DNA of 35,120 nt from a virus. Positions 2,335 to 11,060 of this stretch are shown one piece after another (position 1 is the first letter of the stretch; every line of letters begins with the position of its first letter). Where the stretch lies: positions 1 through 35,120 of the IMG/VR virus record IMGVR_UViG_3300047552_000159. One strand, 5' to 3'. The translations under genes and the position numbers were made by a program. The notes below the pieces were generated by a model, which searched no databases, was not told where the DNA came from, and saw nothing but the letters and a program-made list of their open reading frames with translations.

Positions 2335-2609
2335 AAGAGGCTGTTAAACACCGTCGCAGTCAGATGTTAATTCACAGTTATTTGTACTATCATCTTGATG
2401 ATCCTATTATTCCCGATGATAAATGGCAAGAATGGGCAGAAGACTTGACGGAGTTACATAAAACATGTACAATGATTGGGTTCTACGATAAGGAATTCGC
2501 TGATTGGGATGGTTCTACAGGGATGCACTTACCAGTAGATGACTTTGTAAGAGAAAAAGCACACAAACTTAGACTGTATAGGGATAAAAATGGCACTACA
2601 ATTACTTAA
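2322..2609 (+). CDS. LigA domain Ia-like small protein (95 aa)
   Basis: A 95-aa protein resembling the N-terminal domain Ia of NAD-dependent DNA ligase, which binds the nicotinamide half of NAD. The stretch HSYLYYHLDDPIIPDDKW matches the LigA pattern of Tyr, x, x, x, Asp, x, Pro, x, Ile, x, Asp. The nicotinamide-contacting Tyr and Asp positions are kept, but the Tyr-Asp pair at the end of the motif is Trp-Gln. No adenylation, OB or BRCT domain follows, so it cannot be a ligase alone. It overlaps the primase upstream and the helicase downstream (start 2590), placing it in the replisome operon. It may have been recruited as a scaffold or regulator. The family match is from memory of the LigA motif. 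Confidence 0.6.
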   Translation: MQTIEEAVKHRRSQMLIHSYLYYHLDDPIIPDDKWQEWAEDLTELHKTCTMIGFYDKEFADWDGSTGMHLPVDDFVREKAHKLRLYRDKNGTTIT

Positions 2610-3813
2610 AATCCTGTTAAACCATGAAATCTTCACAAAATATAGTGATTTTGTAGGTCATTTGTACAAAGAAACGAAAGAACTTGGAATTTTGTACCGT
2701 TTTTTGTGTAATTTACATGAAAAATATGAACGCGATATTGCAGAAGTTGAGTTCTCTCTATATGTTCTTGTGAATTGTCAAGAGAAAGACAAGGAAAATC
2801 TCCAGGAAATTCTTGATGGGTTGCGCGAATTAAACACTAATGGTGAAGTCCTAGACGAGATTCTCAGTACGGTAGTACAACGTCATCAGGCATATGAACT
2901 TGCTGTTCTAGGATTAGAGGTAGCAGAAGGACGTAAAGAGTTTAATGACCTTGTAACTGCGACACAGGAATTGACAAAACAGGATGTTGTTAGTACAATT
3001 ACAGATGACACCTTTGTTACGGACGATATCGAAATGTTACTTAATGACTTACAGACAAAACCCGGTTTGCGCTGGAGACTCAAGACTCTGAACAGGATGA
3101 TGGGTTCTCTGCGTAAGGGTGATTTTGGATTCTTGTTTGCTCGACCAGAAACAGGTAAGACCACCTTCTTAGCATCAGAGGTTACGCATTTCGCAGGTCA
3201 GGCTAACTCACCTATCCTGTGGATCAACAATGAGGAAGGTGGGAACAAGGTTAAGATTCGTTTGTATCAGGCTATGCTTGGTGTTACACTAATGGAGTTA
3301 CATACAAATGCAGCAAACATCAAACAGCAATACTTGGAACGGGGTGGAGATAAAATTAGACTCTATGACAGTGCGTCCGTTCATCGAAGACAAGTTGAAC
3401 AATTGTGTCGCGAACTGGAACCAAGTCTCATCATCTTTGACCAATTGGACAAAGTTAAAGGATTCACAGATGATCGGGAGGACTTGCGCCTTGGATCAAT
3501 CTATATCTGGGCTAGAGAACTTGCAAAGCAGTATTGCCCAATTATTGCTGTATCTCAAGCTGATGCAAGTGGCGAAGGAAAAAGGTGGCTGACAATGGAT
3601 AATGTTGCTAATGCTAAGACTGCTAAACAAGCTGAAGCTGATTGGATTCTTGGTATTGGTAAGACTCACTCTGAAGCTGAAGAATACATGCGCCATTTGT
3701 CTTTGTGTAAAAACAAGCTAACTGGCGATCCTGATACAGAACCAGAGTTGCGTCACGGTCGATTGTCTGTTAATATTAACCCTGAGATTGCACGATATGA
3801 GGATATGCCATAA
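2590..3813 (+). CDS. DnaB-type replicative DNA helicase
   Basis: A RecA-fold ATPase that unwinds DNA at the fork, partner of the separate primase. At 407 aa it has a helical N-terminal region (1-140), a linker, then the motor. The Walker A is ARPETGKT (184-191), directly after KGDFGFLF. The catalytic Glu region is WINNEEGG (211-218), and Walker B is LIIFDQLD (280-287). AVSQADASG then matches the helicase sensor strand (DnaB motif 3), and residues after NKLTGDPD suggest a DNA-contacting loop. The start ATG 2590 is inside the preceding gene, and the stop TAA overlaps the next ATG by one base (3813). The length and single motor domain fit phage helicases that lack a fused primase. Confidence 0.88.
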   Translation: MALQLLKILLNHEIFTKYSDFVGHLYKETKELGILYRFLCNLHEKYERDIAEVEFSLYVLVNCQEKDKENLQEILDGLRELNTNGEVLDEILSTVVQRHQAYELAVLGLEVAEGRKEFNDLVTATQELTKQDVVSTITDDTFVTDDIEMLLNDLQTKPGLRWRLKTLNRMMGSLRKGDFGFLFARPETGKTTFLASEVTHFAGQANSPILWINNEEGGNKVKIRLYQAMLGVTLMELHTNAANIKQQYLERGGDKIRLYDSASVHRRQVEQLCRELEPSLIIFDQLDKVKGFTDDREDLRLGSIYIWARELAKQYCPIIAVSQADASGEGKRWLTMDNVANAKTAKQAEADWILGIGKTHSEAEEYMRHLSLCKNKLTGDPDTEPELRHGRLSVNINPEIARYEDMP

Positions 3814-4058: not shown

Positions 4059-4278
4059 AACAAACGCTTGCAAAGCAGAGAAAAATGCAGTAGAATTCCT
4101 TATCAACAGTACAAGAGAGTTTGGAAATGACTTTAGAATCGCAGATTTCGAGTTGCTTGAAGAGTCTGATGGAAAATGTTGTAACAATATTTTGGAGGAC
4201 ACAGAATGCCCCTCGCTAATAAAGAAGCTCGTTCAGAATATATTAAAAACTGGAAAGAAGCAAATCGACGTAAGCTAG
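4018..4278 (+). CDS. Hypothetical protein (about 86 aa), GTG start proposed
   Basis: An open frame runs to TGA at 4276-4278. I place the start at GTG 4018, because GGGAGA (4005-4010) lies 7 bases upstream; ATG 3991 and ATG 4003 are in-frame alternatives with poorer ribosome sites. The product (VQKHTLKVLLTIVETNACKA at the start) reads as a mixed alpha/beta protein up to about codon 65. The last 25 codons overlap the next gene, an HNH endonuclease, and look like run-on sequence. The original C-terminus may therefore have been replaced when the endonuclease inserted. No family recognised. Confidence 0.45.
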   Translation: MQKHTLKVLLTIVETNACKAEKNAVEFLINSTREFGNDFRIADFELLEESDGKCCNNILEDTECPSLIKKLVQNILKTGKKQIDVS

Positions 4279-4763
4279 GAAAACCTAAACGTAAGAACTT
4301 AACACAAGAAGACCTTGACCTTAGAGAAGCTCTACGAAAAGAAAAACGTAAAGAATATACAGAAAAGAATCGAACTAAGATAGTAGCAAGACAGTCTGAA
4401 TGGAGAAAAAATAATTTGCGAGCTAAACCAGAGATACGTTTATTTTATGCTGCTAAAAAACGATCAAAAGAGAAAAATCTACCTTTTAACTTAGACATTT
4501 CTGATATAGTTATTCCAGAGTATTGTCCTTATTTGGGTTTAAAGTTAGAATCCTTTTCTCAACGAGGTGATCCTAGAATGAATGTATCTTCATTAGATAG
4601 GATTATTCCTGAACTTGGGTATGTAAAAGGAAACGTCGAAGTTATCTCTCACTTAGCAAACACAATGAAATCAAATGCAAACAAAGACCAACTCGTTAAA
4701 TTCGCTAGAGAAGTACTTATCAGATTCGATTCAGAAGATAATGGAGAATCCAGTCTGCTTTGA
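4206..4763 (+). CDS. HNH-family homing endonuclease (SLDRI...GYVKGNV type)
   Basis: A free-standing phage endonuclease of a divergent HNH type. The first 90 residues are very basic and helical (EKRKEYTEKNRTKIVARQSEW), probably DNA-binding. The core reads IPEYCPYLGLKL followed by SSLDRIIPELGYVKGNVEVI and ANTMKSNA, a pattern I know from small phage HNH genes: the Asp of LDRI stands in the metal site and the two Asn residues follow. A strong GGAGGA (4194-4199) precedes ATG 4206. The last 23 bases overlap the likely start of the DNA polymerase gene (4741). The location next to a replisome gene suggests homing into, or near, a polymerase allele; this is inference. Confidence 0.8.
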   Translation: MPLANKEARSEYIKNWKEANRRKLGKPKRKNLTQEDLDLREALRKEKRKEYTEKNRTKIVARQSEWRKNNLRAKPEIRLFYAAKKRSKEKNLPFNLDISDIVIPEYCPYLGLKLESFSQRGDPRMNVSSLDRIIPELGYVKGNVEVISHLANTMKSNANKDQLVKFAREVLIRFDSEDNGESSLL

Positions 4764-5874
4764 TATTGAATGTACCACTGCGAACAAGGGCAACCCATTC
4801 ACTCAACAGAACAAGTGCGTCCTGATGCAAGTCAAAGTTGGTTCGCAAAAGCCAGAGAGTTTTTTTCAGGATGAGTTCTATAAAGTTGAAGAAATCCTGA
4901 AATCTGCATCCTGTGTAATAACCTTTAATGGTAAGTTTGACCTGAACTGGCTTCAACGTGAATTAGGGATTCAAGTCCCCTGCGTGTGGGATTGTCAATT
5001 AGCAGAGTTTATTCTGTCTAACCAGACTTGGAGGTATCCTGATCTTGCGACTACCTGTGAAAAGCATGGGGTAGCTAGTAAGCTGGATATTGTTAAGACA
5101 GAGTACTGGAGTAAAGGAATCGACACCTGCGATATTCCTAAAGAAATTCTTGTTGAGTATGGCGAACAGGACGTAGAAAGTACTTACCAAGTGTTCTTAA
5201 AGCAGGTACAATTGTTCTCTAACGAGCAGCAGAGTAAGTTTAAGCTATTTAGGATGCACTGTAATGATCTACTCGTTTTGCAGGAAATGGAGTATAACGG
5301 GATTCAGTATGACTCTGCGAAATCTCTAGCTCGCTCAGAGGAACTAGGTAAGCAGTTGGCACACATTGAAGATAAGTTAGCACAGATGTGCGACATTCCT
5401 ATCAATTGGGATAGCCGCGACCATGTCTCTGTCTTCCTATATGGTGGTACAATTACTGAGGAAACAAGGTTACCGATTGGCGTTTTTAAAACTGGAGCAA
5501 AGATTGGTCAGACACGGTACAAAGTAGTAGAACGTGAGTATTCACTACCACGACTTGTCCAGCCAGTAAAGGGATCAGAGTTAAAGAAGGAAGGTTACTT
5601 TGGAACTGACGAACAGACCTTGCTTTCTTTGAAACCTAATGCTACAATCAAGAAAGTCATTAAATGGTTGCTTGAGCGTTCTAAGATTAAGAAGTTACAG
5701 AGTACTTACTTAGAAGGTTTGCCTAACTTGATTGAAACTATGGACTGGAGTAAAGATATGCTGTATCCTAACTATAACCAGTGTATGGCGCAGACTGGTC
5801 GATTGAGCAGTACCAAACCTAACGCCCAAAATCTTCCTAAAGAAGCTAAATCTTTTTGCACAACGAGGTTTTAA
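4741..5874 (+). CDS. polA-like: DNA polymerase A family, N-terminal half (3'-5' exonuclease and thumb)
   Basis: The first part of a split replicative DNA polymerase, 377 aa. It holds a complete proofreading exonuclease domain: Exo I FDIE (D8, E10), Exo II FNGKFD (D67) and Exo III YGEQD (Y140, D144). A thumb-like region and the start of the polymerase domain follow, up to QTGRLSSTKPNAQNLP, the conserved segment just before the palm. The frame stops at TAA 5872-5874, right before motif A would be expected. I chose ATG 4741 because MENPVCFDIECTT matches the usual start of podovirus polymerases; the frame is open upstream to 4675, but that stretch lies inside the HNH gene. The rest of the enzyme is at 6028-6762. 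Confidence 0.88.
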   Translation: MENPVCFDIECTTANKGNPFTQQNKCVLMQVKVGSQKPESFFQDEFYKVEEILKSASCVITFNGKFDLNWLQRELGIQVPCVWDCQLAEFILSNQTWRYPDLATTCEKHGVASKLDIVKTEYWSKGIDTCDIPKEILVEYGEQDVESTYQVFLKQVQLFSNEQQSKFKLFRMHCNDLLVLQEMEYNGIQYDSAKSLARSEELGKQLAHIEDKLAQMCDIPINWDSRDHVSVFLYGGTITEETRLPIGVFKTGAKIGQTRYKVVEREYSLPRLVQPVKGSELKKEGYFGTDEQTLLSLKPNATIKKVIKWLLERSKIKKLQSTYLEGLPNLIETMDWSKDMLYPNYNQCMAQTGRLSSTKPNAQNLPKEAKSFCTTRF

Positions 5875-5875
5875 T

Positions 5876-6031
5876 ATGTTACAATTCAACGATCAATATG
5901 CAGAAGCAAACTTTTACTTTACAATGATGTCTGTCGCTGAATATGTTAAGCAGTTTGGCTATAAAGAAGTATTGACAGAGATTGAAAGTATGATACAATC
6001 TAGTAAATTAAACGAGAGTAACAACACATGA
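5876..6031 (+). CDS. 51-aa protein between the two halves of DNA polymerase
   Basis: ATG 5876 follows the polymerase stop by one base, and TGA 6029-6031 overlaps the ATG of the second polymerase half (ATGA). The product (MLQFNDQYAEANFYFTMMSV at the start) is acidic and helical, with a predicted helix through EVLTEIESMIQ. It is in a different frame from the two polymerase halves, which share one frame. It may be a small gene carried in by a past insertion, or a linker subunit that helps the halves assemble. No family recognised. GAGG (5865-5868) lies about 8 bases upstream as ribosome site. Confidence 0.6.
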   Translation: MLQFNDQYAEANFYFTMMSVAEYVKQFGYKEVLTEIESMIQSSKLNESNNT

Positions 6032-6762
6032 TTGTTAATGTAGATGCAAAATCCTTAGAATGGTGCACTTACCTATATCTTAGCCAAGACCCTGTTGGAA
6101 TTGAAGAGTGGGAAGGTGTTGTACTTGATCCAGATAAGAACGATATTCATACTGCTAACCAGACAGCATTTAACCTACCAAGCCGTCTAGTAGCAAAAGT
6201 TTTCTTGTTCCGCTGGATTTATAGGGGTAGTGCTTATGCTTACAGTAAAGACCCTGACTTTGCATCTGTAAGTAAGAAAGTTGATTTTTGGCAGGAAGTT
6301 ATTGACAAGTACTACAAGAAGTATGCTAAACTCTACAAAACACACATGCAGTATATTAGGGAGGCAACAACAAAAGGAAAACTTGTAAGTCCATTTGGCC
6401 GTGAGTATCAGTTTGCACCCCACAAGAATTACCGTGGTGAATCTGTTTGGTCTGAACCTGATATTACAAACTGGATTAATCAGGGATGTGGTGCTGATGT
6501 TATGGCTGTTGCGAGGGTAGTTGCATTCCAACGTATGAAACGGGCAGGATTTAAGAGTAAGCTAATCTCTACTGTCCATGATAGTATTGTTGCAGACTGT
6601 CCTGACAATGAGGTAGAAGATGTATCAGTTTTGTTTGACAAAGTATTCCGCGATCTACCACAGCTAGTAACAAAGGCGTATGGTGTTGATTGGAATGTAT
6701 CTATGTTAGGTGAAGTTTCTGTTGGAAAGGACATGCTAAATCTAAAAGAAATTAAATTTTGA
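6028..6762 (+). CDS. polA-like: DNA polymerase A family, C-terminal half (palm and fingers)
   Basis: The second part of the split polymerase, 244 aa, with all three catalytic motifs of family A. Motif A is VNVDAKSLE (D6, E11). Motif B is the fingers helix RLVAKVFLFRWIY (R53, K57, F61, Y65). Motif C is STVHDSIVAD (H184, D185). Two residues are unusual: the glycine after the motif B tyrosine is Arg (YRGSA rather than YG), and the second acidic residue of the HDE motif is Ser, a change I recall from other phage enzymes. The Phe at the 762-equivalent is as in E. coli Pol I. It must associate with the exonuclease half (4741-5874) to form a working enzyme; this is inferred. Its end is followed at once by a promoter for SSB. 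Confidence 0.88.
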   Translation: MIVNVDAKSLEWCTYLYLSQDPVGIEEWEGVVLDPDKNDIHTANQTAFNLPSRLVAKVFLFRWIYRGSAYAYSKDPDFASVSKKVDFWQEVIDKYYKKYAKLYKTHMQYIREATTKGKLVSPFGREYQFAPHKNYRGESVWSEPDITNWINQGCGADVMAVARVVAFQRMKRAGFKSKLISTVHDSIVADCPDNEVEDVSVLFDKVFRDLPQLVTKAYGVDWNVSMLGEVSVGKDMLNLKEIKF

Positions 6763-6822: not shown

Positions 6823-7365
6823 ATGTCCAATATGAAAATCAAAATCGTTGCTGTTGAAACTTCTACTGCTACTTCTAAGAGTGGTAAAGCCTACCAAGTT
6901 GTCGAAGCTACTTACAAGAACATGTCGTTTGATGGTAAGGTAGAAACAAAGAAACACAATAGCTATGGTGATAAGTCAGTATTTGATGCTCTTAAAGGTG
7001 CTAAGTCTGGTGATGAATTTACGATTGAGCGTAAGAAAGATGACGCTGGTTATTGGCAGTGGATTGGTATTGGTTCAGGTAATGTTCCTGCAACATCTTC
7101 TGCAACATCTTCAAGTGCTCCTGCAAAAGCTACAGGCGGGAACTGGGAATCCTCAGAAGAACGCGCTAAGAAACAAGTTTATATCGTTCGCCAGTCTTCC
7201 CTAGGCCATGCTGTTGAGACACTTAAGACAGACAAGAAATCGCCTAGTGCTGACGAAGTAATTGAACTGGCAAAGGTGTATGAGGCTTACGTGTTTGGTA
7301 TTAATCTTGACTCTGAACCTGAGAAATTGCCTAAGTACGACGAGGAAGATGATCTGCCTTACTAA
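6823..7365 (+). CDS. Single-stranded DNA-binding protein
   Basis: A 180-aa protein with the layout of a phage SSB. The N-terminal half is a beta-rich OB-like domain (KIKIVAVETS, then YQVVEATYKNMSFDGKVETK and EFTIERKKDDAGYWQW). A flexible Ser/Ala/Thr linker follows (about 90-105), then a conserved helical segment, and a strongly acidic C-terminal tail YDEEDDLPY. Acidic tails of this kind recruit polymerase and helicase in T7 gp2.5 and bacterial SSB. It has its own sigma70 promoter, in line with the high copy number such proteins need. It coats single strands at the fork and in recombination. The assignment rests on architecture and context rather than a single catalytic motif. Confidence 0.75.
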   Translation: MSNMKIKIVAVETSTATSKSGKAYQVVEATYKNMSFDGKVETKKHNSYGDKSVFDALKGAKSGDEFTIERKKDDAGYWQWIGIGSGNVPATSSATSSSAPAKATGGNWESSEERAKKQVYIVRQSSLGHAVETLKTDKKSPSADEVIELAKVYEAYVFGINLDSEPEKLPKYDEEDDLPY

Positions 7366-9134: not shown

Positions 9135-9535
9135 CAACTAAACGCCGACGAAGTAAGCTAGAACTTCAATTTGAAGAAATCCTTAAAGAGAACAAGGCAG
9201 AATACGATTATGAAGTAACAAAGCTAAAATATATTGTGCCAGAATCAAATCATGTATATACTGTGGATTGGACACTAAATAGTGGAATGCTACTTGAAAC
9301 GAAGGGCTATCTTAGTGACCATGCTGAACGCAACAAGTATGTCCTGTTAAAACAGCAGTACCCTGACTTAGATTTGCGTTTTGTATTTGCTAGTCTTACT
9401 AAGCCCTGTGGTGGAATGAAGACTACACATGAACAGTGGGCAATAAAGAATGGTTTTAAATATTGCTCTGTTAAAGATGTTGCAACCATTAAGAAATGGA
9501 TTAAGGAAAGCAATGAAAATTCTAGTCCTGCCTGA
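9131..9535 (+). CDS. Endonuclease I (T7 gp3-like Holliday junction resolvase)
   Basis: A 134-aa nuclease of the T7 endonuclease I family, which cuts branched DNA and helps degrade host DNA. The PD-(D/E)XK centre is clear: D46 in YTVDWTL, E56 and K58 in LLETKGY, plus E15 or E16 in the N-terminal helix. The spacing of 10 between Asp and Glu equals that in T7 gp3 (D55, E65, K67). The segment ERNKYVLLKQQYPDLDLRFVF is also typical. The T7 enzyme works as a domain-swapped dimer. The gene sits between the exonuclease module and a phosphoesterase, whose start (9513) overlaps its 3' end. Confidence 0.9.
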   Translation: MTTKRRRSKLELQFEEILKENKAEYDYEVTKLKYIVPESNHVYTVDWTLNSGMLLETKGYLSDHAERNKYVLLKQQYPDLDLRFVFASLTKPCGGMKTTHEQWAIKNGFKYCSVKDVATIKKWIKESNENSSPA

Positions 9536-11060
9536 TACACAGGCCAAGTATTCAGATAACTTTGATTTTCTAACCTGTATTGGTAAATATATCTTAGCAA
9601 AGAAACCGGATGTGGTTTTGCACCTCGGAGACTTTTCCGACATGGAATCGCTAAGCAGTTATGATACAGGAAAGAAGAGCTTTGAGGGGCGACGCTACAC
9701 AAAAGACATTAAGGCAGCAGAACTTGCTATGAAAGCCTTGATGACCCCTTTGGTAGAGTTTAACCAGAAAGCAAAGAAGAACAAGGAAAAGCAGTATAAG
9801 CCCCGCCTTGTGATGCTGTTGGGTAACCATGAAAACAGAATCATGCGAGCTGTTAATGACGATCCTAAACTAGATGGGTTGATTAGCTACGATGACCTTC
9901 CATATAAGAAATACAATTGGGAAGTACATGACTTCCTTCACCCTGTCTTTATCAATGGTGTTGCTTTCAGTCATTATTTTCCCACTGGTGCTATGGGCCG
10001 TCCTGCTGCTAGCGCTGTTACACTGGTCGGAAAAATGCATATGTCTTGTATCGCGGGTCATCAACAGGGTCGTCAAGTAGCCTATGGAAAACGCCCAGAT
10101 GGTTCAGCTATCACAGCCATTATTGCTGGCTCTTGTTTGGCTAAACACCATAAGGTACTGACGGCTGATCTACGATATGTTGAACTAGGCTCTGTGCGTG
10201 TTGGAGATAAACTTGTTAGTTTTGACGAACATCTTGGCATGTCTGCAAAGCGCAGTCGTAGATTTAAAACAGGGACTGTCCTGAATGTTAAGCATACTGT
10301 TGGGGAGCTTTTTGATGTTACTTTAAGTAATGGTAAGGTTTTTACTACAACTCGCGACCACAAATGGCTAACAAAGAACTGTTGTGGGGTAAATAAGTGG
10401 CAAGAAACACAAGACCTGACTGTGAATAAGACAAAGGTTGCTCGTGTTTTACCAGAATGGGAGACTTTAGAAACAAGAGAGGCTGGTTGGTTAGCTGGGA
10501 TGTATGATGGTGAGGGTAGTCTGTATGCCAGAAAAACAACTGGTGGAAATTGCACTCAATTAGCTATTTCTCAGTGTCCTGTTCATAATCCAACTACTGT
10601 AGAAAGACTTATAAAGGCCCATCAAAATTTAGGATTTGATCTTGGAAATCATTGTAAAAATGGAAAAAATTGTCGCCAATGGAGAATTCCAAGGGGACAG
10701 GCACAGGTTGCTAAGTTTTTAGGCTCTGTACGTCCTCAAAGGTTGTTGGATAAATTTAAACCTGAGTTGCTTGGAACTTTGACTACTAAATATGCCGAAC
10801 CCCTAGATACTGTCGTGTCTGTTGCTTCAAAAGGTTTAGGTACATACGTAGAAATAGAAATTGATGCTGCTACAATGGTCGTAGAAGGTTACCCACACCA
10901 TAATTGTTATGAACACGATGAGGGTTACTTAGACCACCAGAGTAATCACCACTGGCGCGGTATCATTATGTTGCATGAAGTAGAGAATGGTTCTTTTGAT
11001 GAAATGTTTGTTAGCTTAAAGTACTTGAAAGAGAAATATGCTACACAAAACAATAGCTGA
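9513..11060 (+). CDS. Calcineurin-like metallophosphoesterase interrupted by an intein
   Basis: A 515-codon gene: 207 residues of N-extein, a 257-residue intein (10134-10904) and 51 residues of C-extein. Spliced, it would give a 258-aa metallophosphoesterase. Family motifs are LPDTQ (D8; His of the usual DxH is Gln), HLGDFSD (D40), GNHEN (N105, H106), FSHYF (H154) and GHQQG (H183). The substrate is unknown; phage relatives are often annotated as phosphatases or nucleases. ATG 9513 is chosen because MKILVLPDTQ is the normal start and GGA lies upstream. The frame is open to 9450, but that part is inside endonuclease I. The intein interrupts between Gly-Ser and Cys, 25 residues after the active-site GHQQ motif. 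Confidence 0.85.
   Translation: MKILVLPDTQAKYSDNFDFLTCIGKYILAKKPDVVLHLGDFSDMESLSSYDTGKKSFEGRRYTKDIKAAELAMKALMTPLVEFNQKAKKNKEKQYKPRLVMLLGNHENRIMRAVNDDPKLDGLISYDDLPYKKYNWEVHDFLHPVFINGVAFSHYFPTGAMGRPAASAVTLVGKMHMSCIAGHQQGRQVAYGKRPDGSAITAIIAGSCLAKHHKVLTADLRYVELGSVRVGDKLVSFDEHLGMSAKRSRRFKTGTVLNVKHTVGELFDVTLSNGKVFTTTRDHKWLTKNCCGVNKWQETQDLTVNKTKVARVLPEWETLETREAGWLAGMYDGEGSLYARKTTGGNCTQLAISQCPVHNPTTVERLIKAHQNLGFDLGNHCKNGKNCRQWRIPRGQAQVAKFLGSVRPQRLLDKFKPELLGTLTTKYAEPLDTVVSVASKGLGTYVEIEIDAATMVVEGYPHHNCYEHDEGYLDHQSNHHWRGIIMLHEVENGSFDEMFVSLKYLKEKYATQNNS
10134..10904 (+). mobile_element. Intein with LAGLIDADG endonuclease domain
   Basis: A 257-aa in-frame protein intron. It begins with Cys (CLAKHHKVLTADLRYVELGS), matching splicing block A. 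Block B is TTTRDH (T73, H76 of the intein). One LAGLIDADG motif is seen in GWLAGMYDGEGSL (118-130). Block F is YVEIEIDAATMVVEG, and the C-terminal block G is YPHHN followed by Cys as the first C-extein residue. All splicing residues (Cys1, TxxH, His-Asn, +1 Cys) are present, so splicing should work. Only one LAGLIDADG copy is visible, where most inteins have two, so the endonuclease may dimerise or be degenerate. Confidence 0.92.

Follow-up and report, generated by a model that had tools for sequence, protein, structure and literature searches.

A family A DNA polymerase divided beside motif A into two open reading frames, and the conservation of the break among related phages

The polymerase locus in the window

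We analysed a stretch of viral DNA of 35,120 nucleotides (IMG/VR record IMGVR_UViG_3300047552_000159, positions 1 to 35,120), which we call the window. The features of its polymerase locus and of the neighbouring genes are listed in Table 1.

Table 1. Coordinates of the polymerase locus and its neighbours in the window
Feature	Position	Strand	Remarks
DnaB-like replicative helicase	2590..3813	+	upstream neighbour, as in MEP401
HNH endonuclease gene	4206..4763	+	phrog_3322, 2.8e-31; overlaps the exonuclease half by 23 bases
Exonuclease half, family A DNA polymerase	4741..5874	+	377 codons; 3'-5' exonuclease, thumb, first palm strands
TGRLSS motif	5794-5811	+	within the exonuclease half
Shine-Dalgarno-like GAGGT	5865..5869	+	in the last conserved codons of the exonuclease half (T-R-F), 6 bases 5' of ATG 5876
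Gap gene	5876..6031	+	51 codons; product likely to belong with the small, helical proteins of the gap
Polymerase half	6028..6762	+	244 codons
Motif A, VNVDAKSLE	6034-6060	+	polymerase half; Asp at 6043-6045
Motif B	from Arg 6184	+	polymerase half
Motif C (HD)	6577-6582	+	polymerase half
Gene 3' of the polymerase half	6823..7365	+	position taken by a similar-sized gene in relatives

Pfam shared out a single DNA_pol_A domain over two ORFs (profile positions 54-135 and 184-360) and assigned the 3'-5' exonuclease to the first of them. The hallmarks of a family A enzyme (exonuclease, TGR, the Asp of motif A, the Arg/Lys of motif B and the HD of motif C) are complete, with motif A intact, and are distributed across the two ORFs. 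The exonuclease half, for which there is an alternative longer in-frame ORF from 4675, reads MENPVCFDIECTT...TGRLSSTKPNAQNLPKEAKSFCTTRF* and ends at the stop TAA 5872-5874. The polymerase half begins MIVNVDAKSLEW.

The gap between the halves consists of 153 bases (5875-6027). At the end of the exonuclease half, TAATATG leads into the ATG of the gap gene, and the stop codon of that gene (TGA 6029-6031) overlaps the polymerase ATG at 6028 as ATGA. An earlier note, made from the sequence alone, had described these genes, junctions and the 51-codon gene, and all of them were borne out when the sequence was read again; the coupling of start and stop signals that it proposed is supported by TAATATG and ATGA. 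The note had also placed both halves in a single frame with TAA 5872 and TGA 5938, and had concluded that neither readthrough nor one sequencing error explains the break. This is right, and the case is stronger than was stated, because the common frame contains eight stops, not two, when it is read through the gap. These eight stops, together with relatives that have the same break, rule out a sequencing error.

Elsewhere in the window, at 9450-11060, there is a calcineurin-like phosphoesterase gene with a 256-residue intein (insert about 10134-10901). The intein starts with Cys, ends with HN before the following C, and has an LAGMYDGEG-type motif; the homologue in the relative L008 is without the insert.

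Conservation and ancestry of the break

IMG/VR was scanned with a profile of each half, and together with GenBank records and the window this gave 155 loci with both halves, two of which are of the ICP2 type. The set comprises about 130 unique contigs (129 were counted for the survey of motif A) and 57 dereplicated lineages. All window-type loci with both halves are broken at one and the same turn, which links SR[FY] to the strand of motif A. An unbroken gene, which either profile should detect, was found at none of the 155 loci. Four additional contigs from bacterial assemblies are split as well, and so are all five GenBank phage records in which tblastn found both halves (36-49% identity). 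The exonuclease half of the window is 40-51% identical to its counterpart in five other records, and at the DNA level the window has no relatives among GenBank phages. Thus the split is genuine, as the earlier note had held, since the same break occurs in all these contigs, the five GenBank records included. The note had proposed to search both halves against phages and to look for relatives with an unbroken gene; the search yielded the GenBank records, all split, and no unbroken gene among close relatives holding both halves.

In unbroken relatives, SR[FW] is followed by a short Gly-rich turn and then by the motif A strand, which ends in Asp. In members of the split clade, SR[FY] and a few residues usually form the end of the first protein, and the second starts with M(I/L)(V/L)xxDAK. 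That is, only a turn of two to three residues between two palm strands is missing at the break, and because the break adjoins the Asp of motif A, the active site is complete in neither half.

The gap varies among relatives: at one extreme the halves overlap by 17 bases, at the other they are 3.6 kb apart. The halves are frequently in different frames, and in 17 of the 57 lineages the halves overlap or are separated by at most 2 bases. The closest relative, L008 (77% identity in the polymerase half), has no gap gene, and its TAA is directly followed by ATG (...ATTACGAGGTACTAAATG...). In Alcaligenes phage vB_Af_QDWS535 there is nothing in the gap and the halves overlap as TAATG. Between their halves, MEP401 and MEP402 carry an ORF of 77 codons. 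One Manatee Spring podovirus record carries a gap gene with the annotation 'R67 dihydrofolate reductase', and in another record from Manatee Spring the 3.6-kb gap contains seven genes. We also observed, at 4128-4388 of L008, that the exonuclease half starts about 50 residues late, without the first exonuclease motif (DxE), and that a different small gene is in that place.

A Shine-Dalgarno match of at least 4 bases precedes the polymerase start in 67% of 54 lineages, compared with 13% for internal ATGs (relatedness ignored). The codons of SR[FY] often provide the Shine-Dalgarno site of the downstream start, and where there is no gap gene this site stands directly before the polymerase start. 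The Arg codon of the junction is AGG or AGA in 86% of the lineages, compared with 49% for other arginines (relatedness again ignored), and the TGR arginine is also high in these codons (69%). In the window, GAGGT belongs to the 51-codon gene; the polymerase start lies within ATGA without a strong Shine-Dalgarno site.

In a tree of 42 polymerases, all window-type splits are on one branch (support 99/99), so that the window is in the same clade as the MEP401-type split enzymes. The ICP2-type split was placed beside the unbroken Autographiviridae enzymes, its break point (after NLQN[IL]SN) is not that of the window, and a tree uniting both split types was rejected (AU test, p=0.002). As judged from the tree and the break points, the split arose once for the window's clade and separately in Vibrio phage ICP2. 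The ICP2-type gap contains an HNH gene in ICP2, an 88-aa gene in VP41s3 and a 9-base spacer in ICP2_2013_A_Haiti. As ICP2 with its HNH gene and ICP2_2013_A_Haiti with its spacer are both split, the genes of the gap turn over while the split persists.

The distances of the exonuclease and polymerase halves are correlated (r 0.85; 0 of 2000 permutations), and dN/dS among close relatives is about 0.1-0.2 for the exonuclease half and 0.02-0.2 for the polymerase half. In some close relatives (L021, L029, L148, L157) the synonymous divergence differs strongly between the two halves, for example 0.18 and 0.98. Such unequal divergence, as in L021 and L029, suggests that the halves can be re-paired by recombination at the gap.

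The gap protein and the HNH genes

The 51-residue protein was modelled as two helices, and BLAST aligned it with other gap proteins at 44% identity over 32 residues. A gap-family profile built without this protein ranked it first of the 237 ORFs of the window, with E=0.017 in 11,042 ORFs, and its score was reached by 1 of 20,000 shuffles. The score was 14.5 bits, compared with 9.9 bits for its own reversed sequence, meaning that the signal is partly due to composition. There was no match in Pfam or in phage tblastn, the PHROGs match was at chance level only, and neither Pfam nor PHROGs gave an endonuclease match. We count the protein as a probable member, with a weak sequence match, of a small helical family with the pattern EEA....T..F.....GA..VL...

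Of the 60 hits of the family profile, 58 are in the gap, and the other two are at truncated contig ends directly before the polymerase half. A search begun from the small protein gave the same picture, all 20 of its hits lying either in the gap or where a contig is cut off ahead of the polymerase half. The family is under purifying selection in relatives (dN/dS 0.01-0.6), and about eight changes on the tree are required to account for where it occurs, meaning that gains, losses or transfers are frequent. The gap gene was also considered as the cause that keeps the enzyme split, and this was rejected because the 17 lineages with an overlap or a gap of at most 2 bases are split as well. From this distribution we read the 51-codon gene as an optional accessory or passenger of the gap.

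The HNH gene before the exonuclease half, which the earlier note had left out, covers the first 23 bases of that half. It is 48% identical over 106 residues to the HNH gene in the polymerase gap of L099, and by this similarity it is of the same family as the HNH genes in the gaps of relatives. In the window, two HNH genes (1097-1648 and 4206-4763) each run into the beginning of a replication gene, the first into the primase gene (from 1600) and the second into the exonuclease half (from 4741).

In sister phages, 15 of the 129 unique contigs have an interruption in the motif A codons for D-A-K-x-L-E-W, exactly at L-E-W. The net change is a gain of 1-8 bases, except in one contig, where a single base is lost. 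Five lineages (L090/L207, L092/L212, L096/L210, L206 and L209) have Leu-stop-Leu (CTN TAR CTN, e.g. CTT TAG CTG) at this position, and other small indels are seen in L204, L001, L034, L049, L077, L083, L093, L095, L120 and L202. Without recoding, all 15 interrupted polymerase halves would lose the catalytic strand. In MW202697 (L001, 5050-5110), the polymerase half is annotated from 5275 with motif A left out; motif A sits upstream of the annotated start, before a one-base insertion at AGC-T-CTT-GAA. Leu-stop-Leu has the same layout as the synthetic 'stop-hop', and a 2016 review was aware of no natural in-frame stop-hop (PMC5009743). L204 (CTT TAG CCC) does not fit a matched-codon hop, such a hop gives no explanation of the insertions of +5, +7 and +8, and a TGA version of the pattern gave a chance hit only.

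An HNH gene is in the gap of 7 of the 15 interrupted contigs, compared with 4 of the 114 others (Fisher p=1.7e-5; counted by hand and uncorrected for relatedness). In L092 (5742-6257) and L202 (2933-3319), the HNH gene of the gap opens with a copy of the polymerase start (MAIVNADAKS and MIINIDAKS, respectively), and a second copy of those codons is at the polymerase gene itself. We regard these duplications as signs of insertion at motif A. Frame breaks outside motif A were rare, in a scan without reach to short N-terminal pieces. They were inserts with an HNH gene at motif B in L095 (7825-8545), L096 (4064-4651) and L098 (4926-5603), of which that of L098 matches Rfam Intron_gpI (E=3e-4). L204 has a further insert, at residue 155, and isolated stops occur in L159 and terminally in L063.

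We suggest only tentatively that the start of the polymerase half may be a target of homing endonucleases, from which the clade escapes in unusual ways, the ribosome possibly hopping over the stop to give an intact motif A. T4 gene 60 with mobA is a mobile cassette, and by analogy the present locus with its adjoining HNH genes may be one as well.

A probable two-part enzyme, its alternatives and known systems

When the halves of L061 were joined by reading through their lone stop, a complete polymerase was predicted (pLDDT 89.3, pTM 0.85, 20 rows); this is a model of the joined chain of that relative, not of the window's own chains or of separate chains. In the model, the break is in the loop before the strand of motif A (residues 375-379 coil, 380-387 strand), and the fold matches Bst/Klenow over its full length, across the junction (TMq 0.77).

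We consider it very likely that the replicative polymerase of the window is a two-subunit family A enzyme, the halves of which are separate proteins that would assemble into an active enzyme without a covalent link. The exonuclease half would contribute the exonuclease, the thumb, the first palm strands and the TGR arginine, and the polymerase half would contribute the motif A aspartate, the fingers and motifs B and C. Both would be translated as separate proteins, presumably from a single message, with the 51-codon gene translated between them by stop/start coupling, and they would then associate non-covalently.

The 51-residue protein could also be a third subunit without which the halves would not be bridged or activated. 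The confinement of its family to the place between the halves and the purifying selection on it speak for such a role, but the gap protein is missing in the 17 of 57 lineages without a gap, with close relatives of the window among them, and it was not found elsewhere in the DNA available for them; the family membership of the window protein is, moreover, weak by sequence. We therefore think that a required third subunit is unlikely. Phage polymerase genes often contain group I introns, and the gap might be an intron, of group I or another kind, with the RNA spliced to encode one polymerase, as was suggested for MEP401. The halves of the window do share one frame, and the same gene family has the motif B inserts in L095, L096 and L098, including the one that matches group I. 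However, no intron was matched in the window's 3 kb, while the L098 intron, serving as the positive control, was detected; what weak Rfam matches there were close to the gap were to eukaryotic families, at chance level. In addition, gaps of -17 to 2 bases are too small to hold an intron, the halves are often in different frames, the polymerase starts have their own Shine-Dalgarno sites, and ICP2 is split with or without the HNH gene. The earlier note had named RNA splicing as a finding that would refute the split, and the comparison counts against it, since there is no intron core in the gap and some relatives have no room for one; we regard an intron as highly improbable.

As the virus record is fragmentary and stops separate the two large halves, the locus may also look like a broken pseudogene whose function has been taken over by another enzyme. 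Yet every catalytic motif is intact, both halves are under strong purifying selection in relatives and the break is fixed across a deep clade, so that this explanation is hardly credible. A split intein, with intein pieces on the halves and ligation after translation, is known in the family B polymerase of phage MIJ3 (PMC6892783), and a different gene of the window does contain an intein; but the halves stop and start right at the conserved strands of the polymerase and carry nothing additional there, and we give this explanation almost no weight. Judged from the sequences, an intron, a split intein and a sequencing error are excluded or very unlikely, and an enzyme of two separately made halves is the most likely reading.

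The earlier note had thought the split with a small gene in it worth describing. It is already known, having been reported with an intron suspected for the OM43 phages MEP401 and MEP402 and most of the related metagenomic (group I) genomes (PMC10580990, 2023), and the window is a further case. The present analysis adds that the break is fixed throughout the clade as sampled, that there were two independent splits, that a case against splicing can be made with a positive control, and that the gap proteins define a family. A division beside the catalytic Asp that holds throughout a widespread clade of phages and was reached again in a relative means that the break is tolerated in nature, and the locus offers a ready-made two-part family A polymerase for testing. 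The intron question left by MEP401 is answered by comparison, and the locus looks like a conserved enzyme site repeatedly visited by homing endonucleases, with possible recoding in sister phages.

Among known systems, the MEP401 type (OM43 phages, Zobellviridae; PMC10580990) shares with the window the break, the small ORF between the halves and the gene order of primase, helicase, exonuclease half, small ORF, polymerase half, exonuclease and endonuclease. The two are about 37-40% identical; the small protein of the window is shorter, and in the window an HNH gene overlaps the exonuclease start. An intron was left open in that report and is argued against here. A few Zobellviridae with separate exonuclease and polymerase genes have also been described (PMC10143988). 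The family A polymerase of Vibrio ICP2 and VP41s3 (Icepovirus and unclassified Zobellviridae) likewise consists of two ORFs, between which a gene may or may not be present, but its break is 12-14 residues earlier and of separate origin in the tree. The homologous enzymes of Autographiviridae and HMO-2011-type phages (Ptah, RHEph02, HMO-2011) have the same motifs as the window, whereas they are single chains that keep the residues of the turn. In genes split by homing endonucleases the endonuclease is in the break, whereas the gap of the window has none and some relatives have an HNH gene there. Finally, gp43A and gp43B of the T4-like phage 25, which co-purify and are active, and the split NrdA of Aeh1 (reviewed in PMC2988022) are likewise divided replication enzymes with cooperating parts and homing endonucleases nearby, but they are a family B polymerase and a ribonucleotide reductase, occur in few phages and have other break points.
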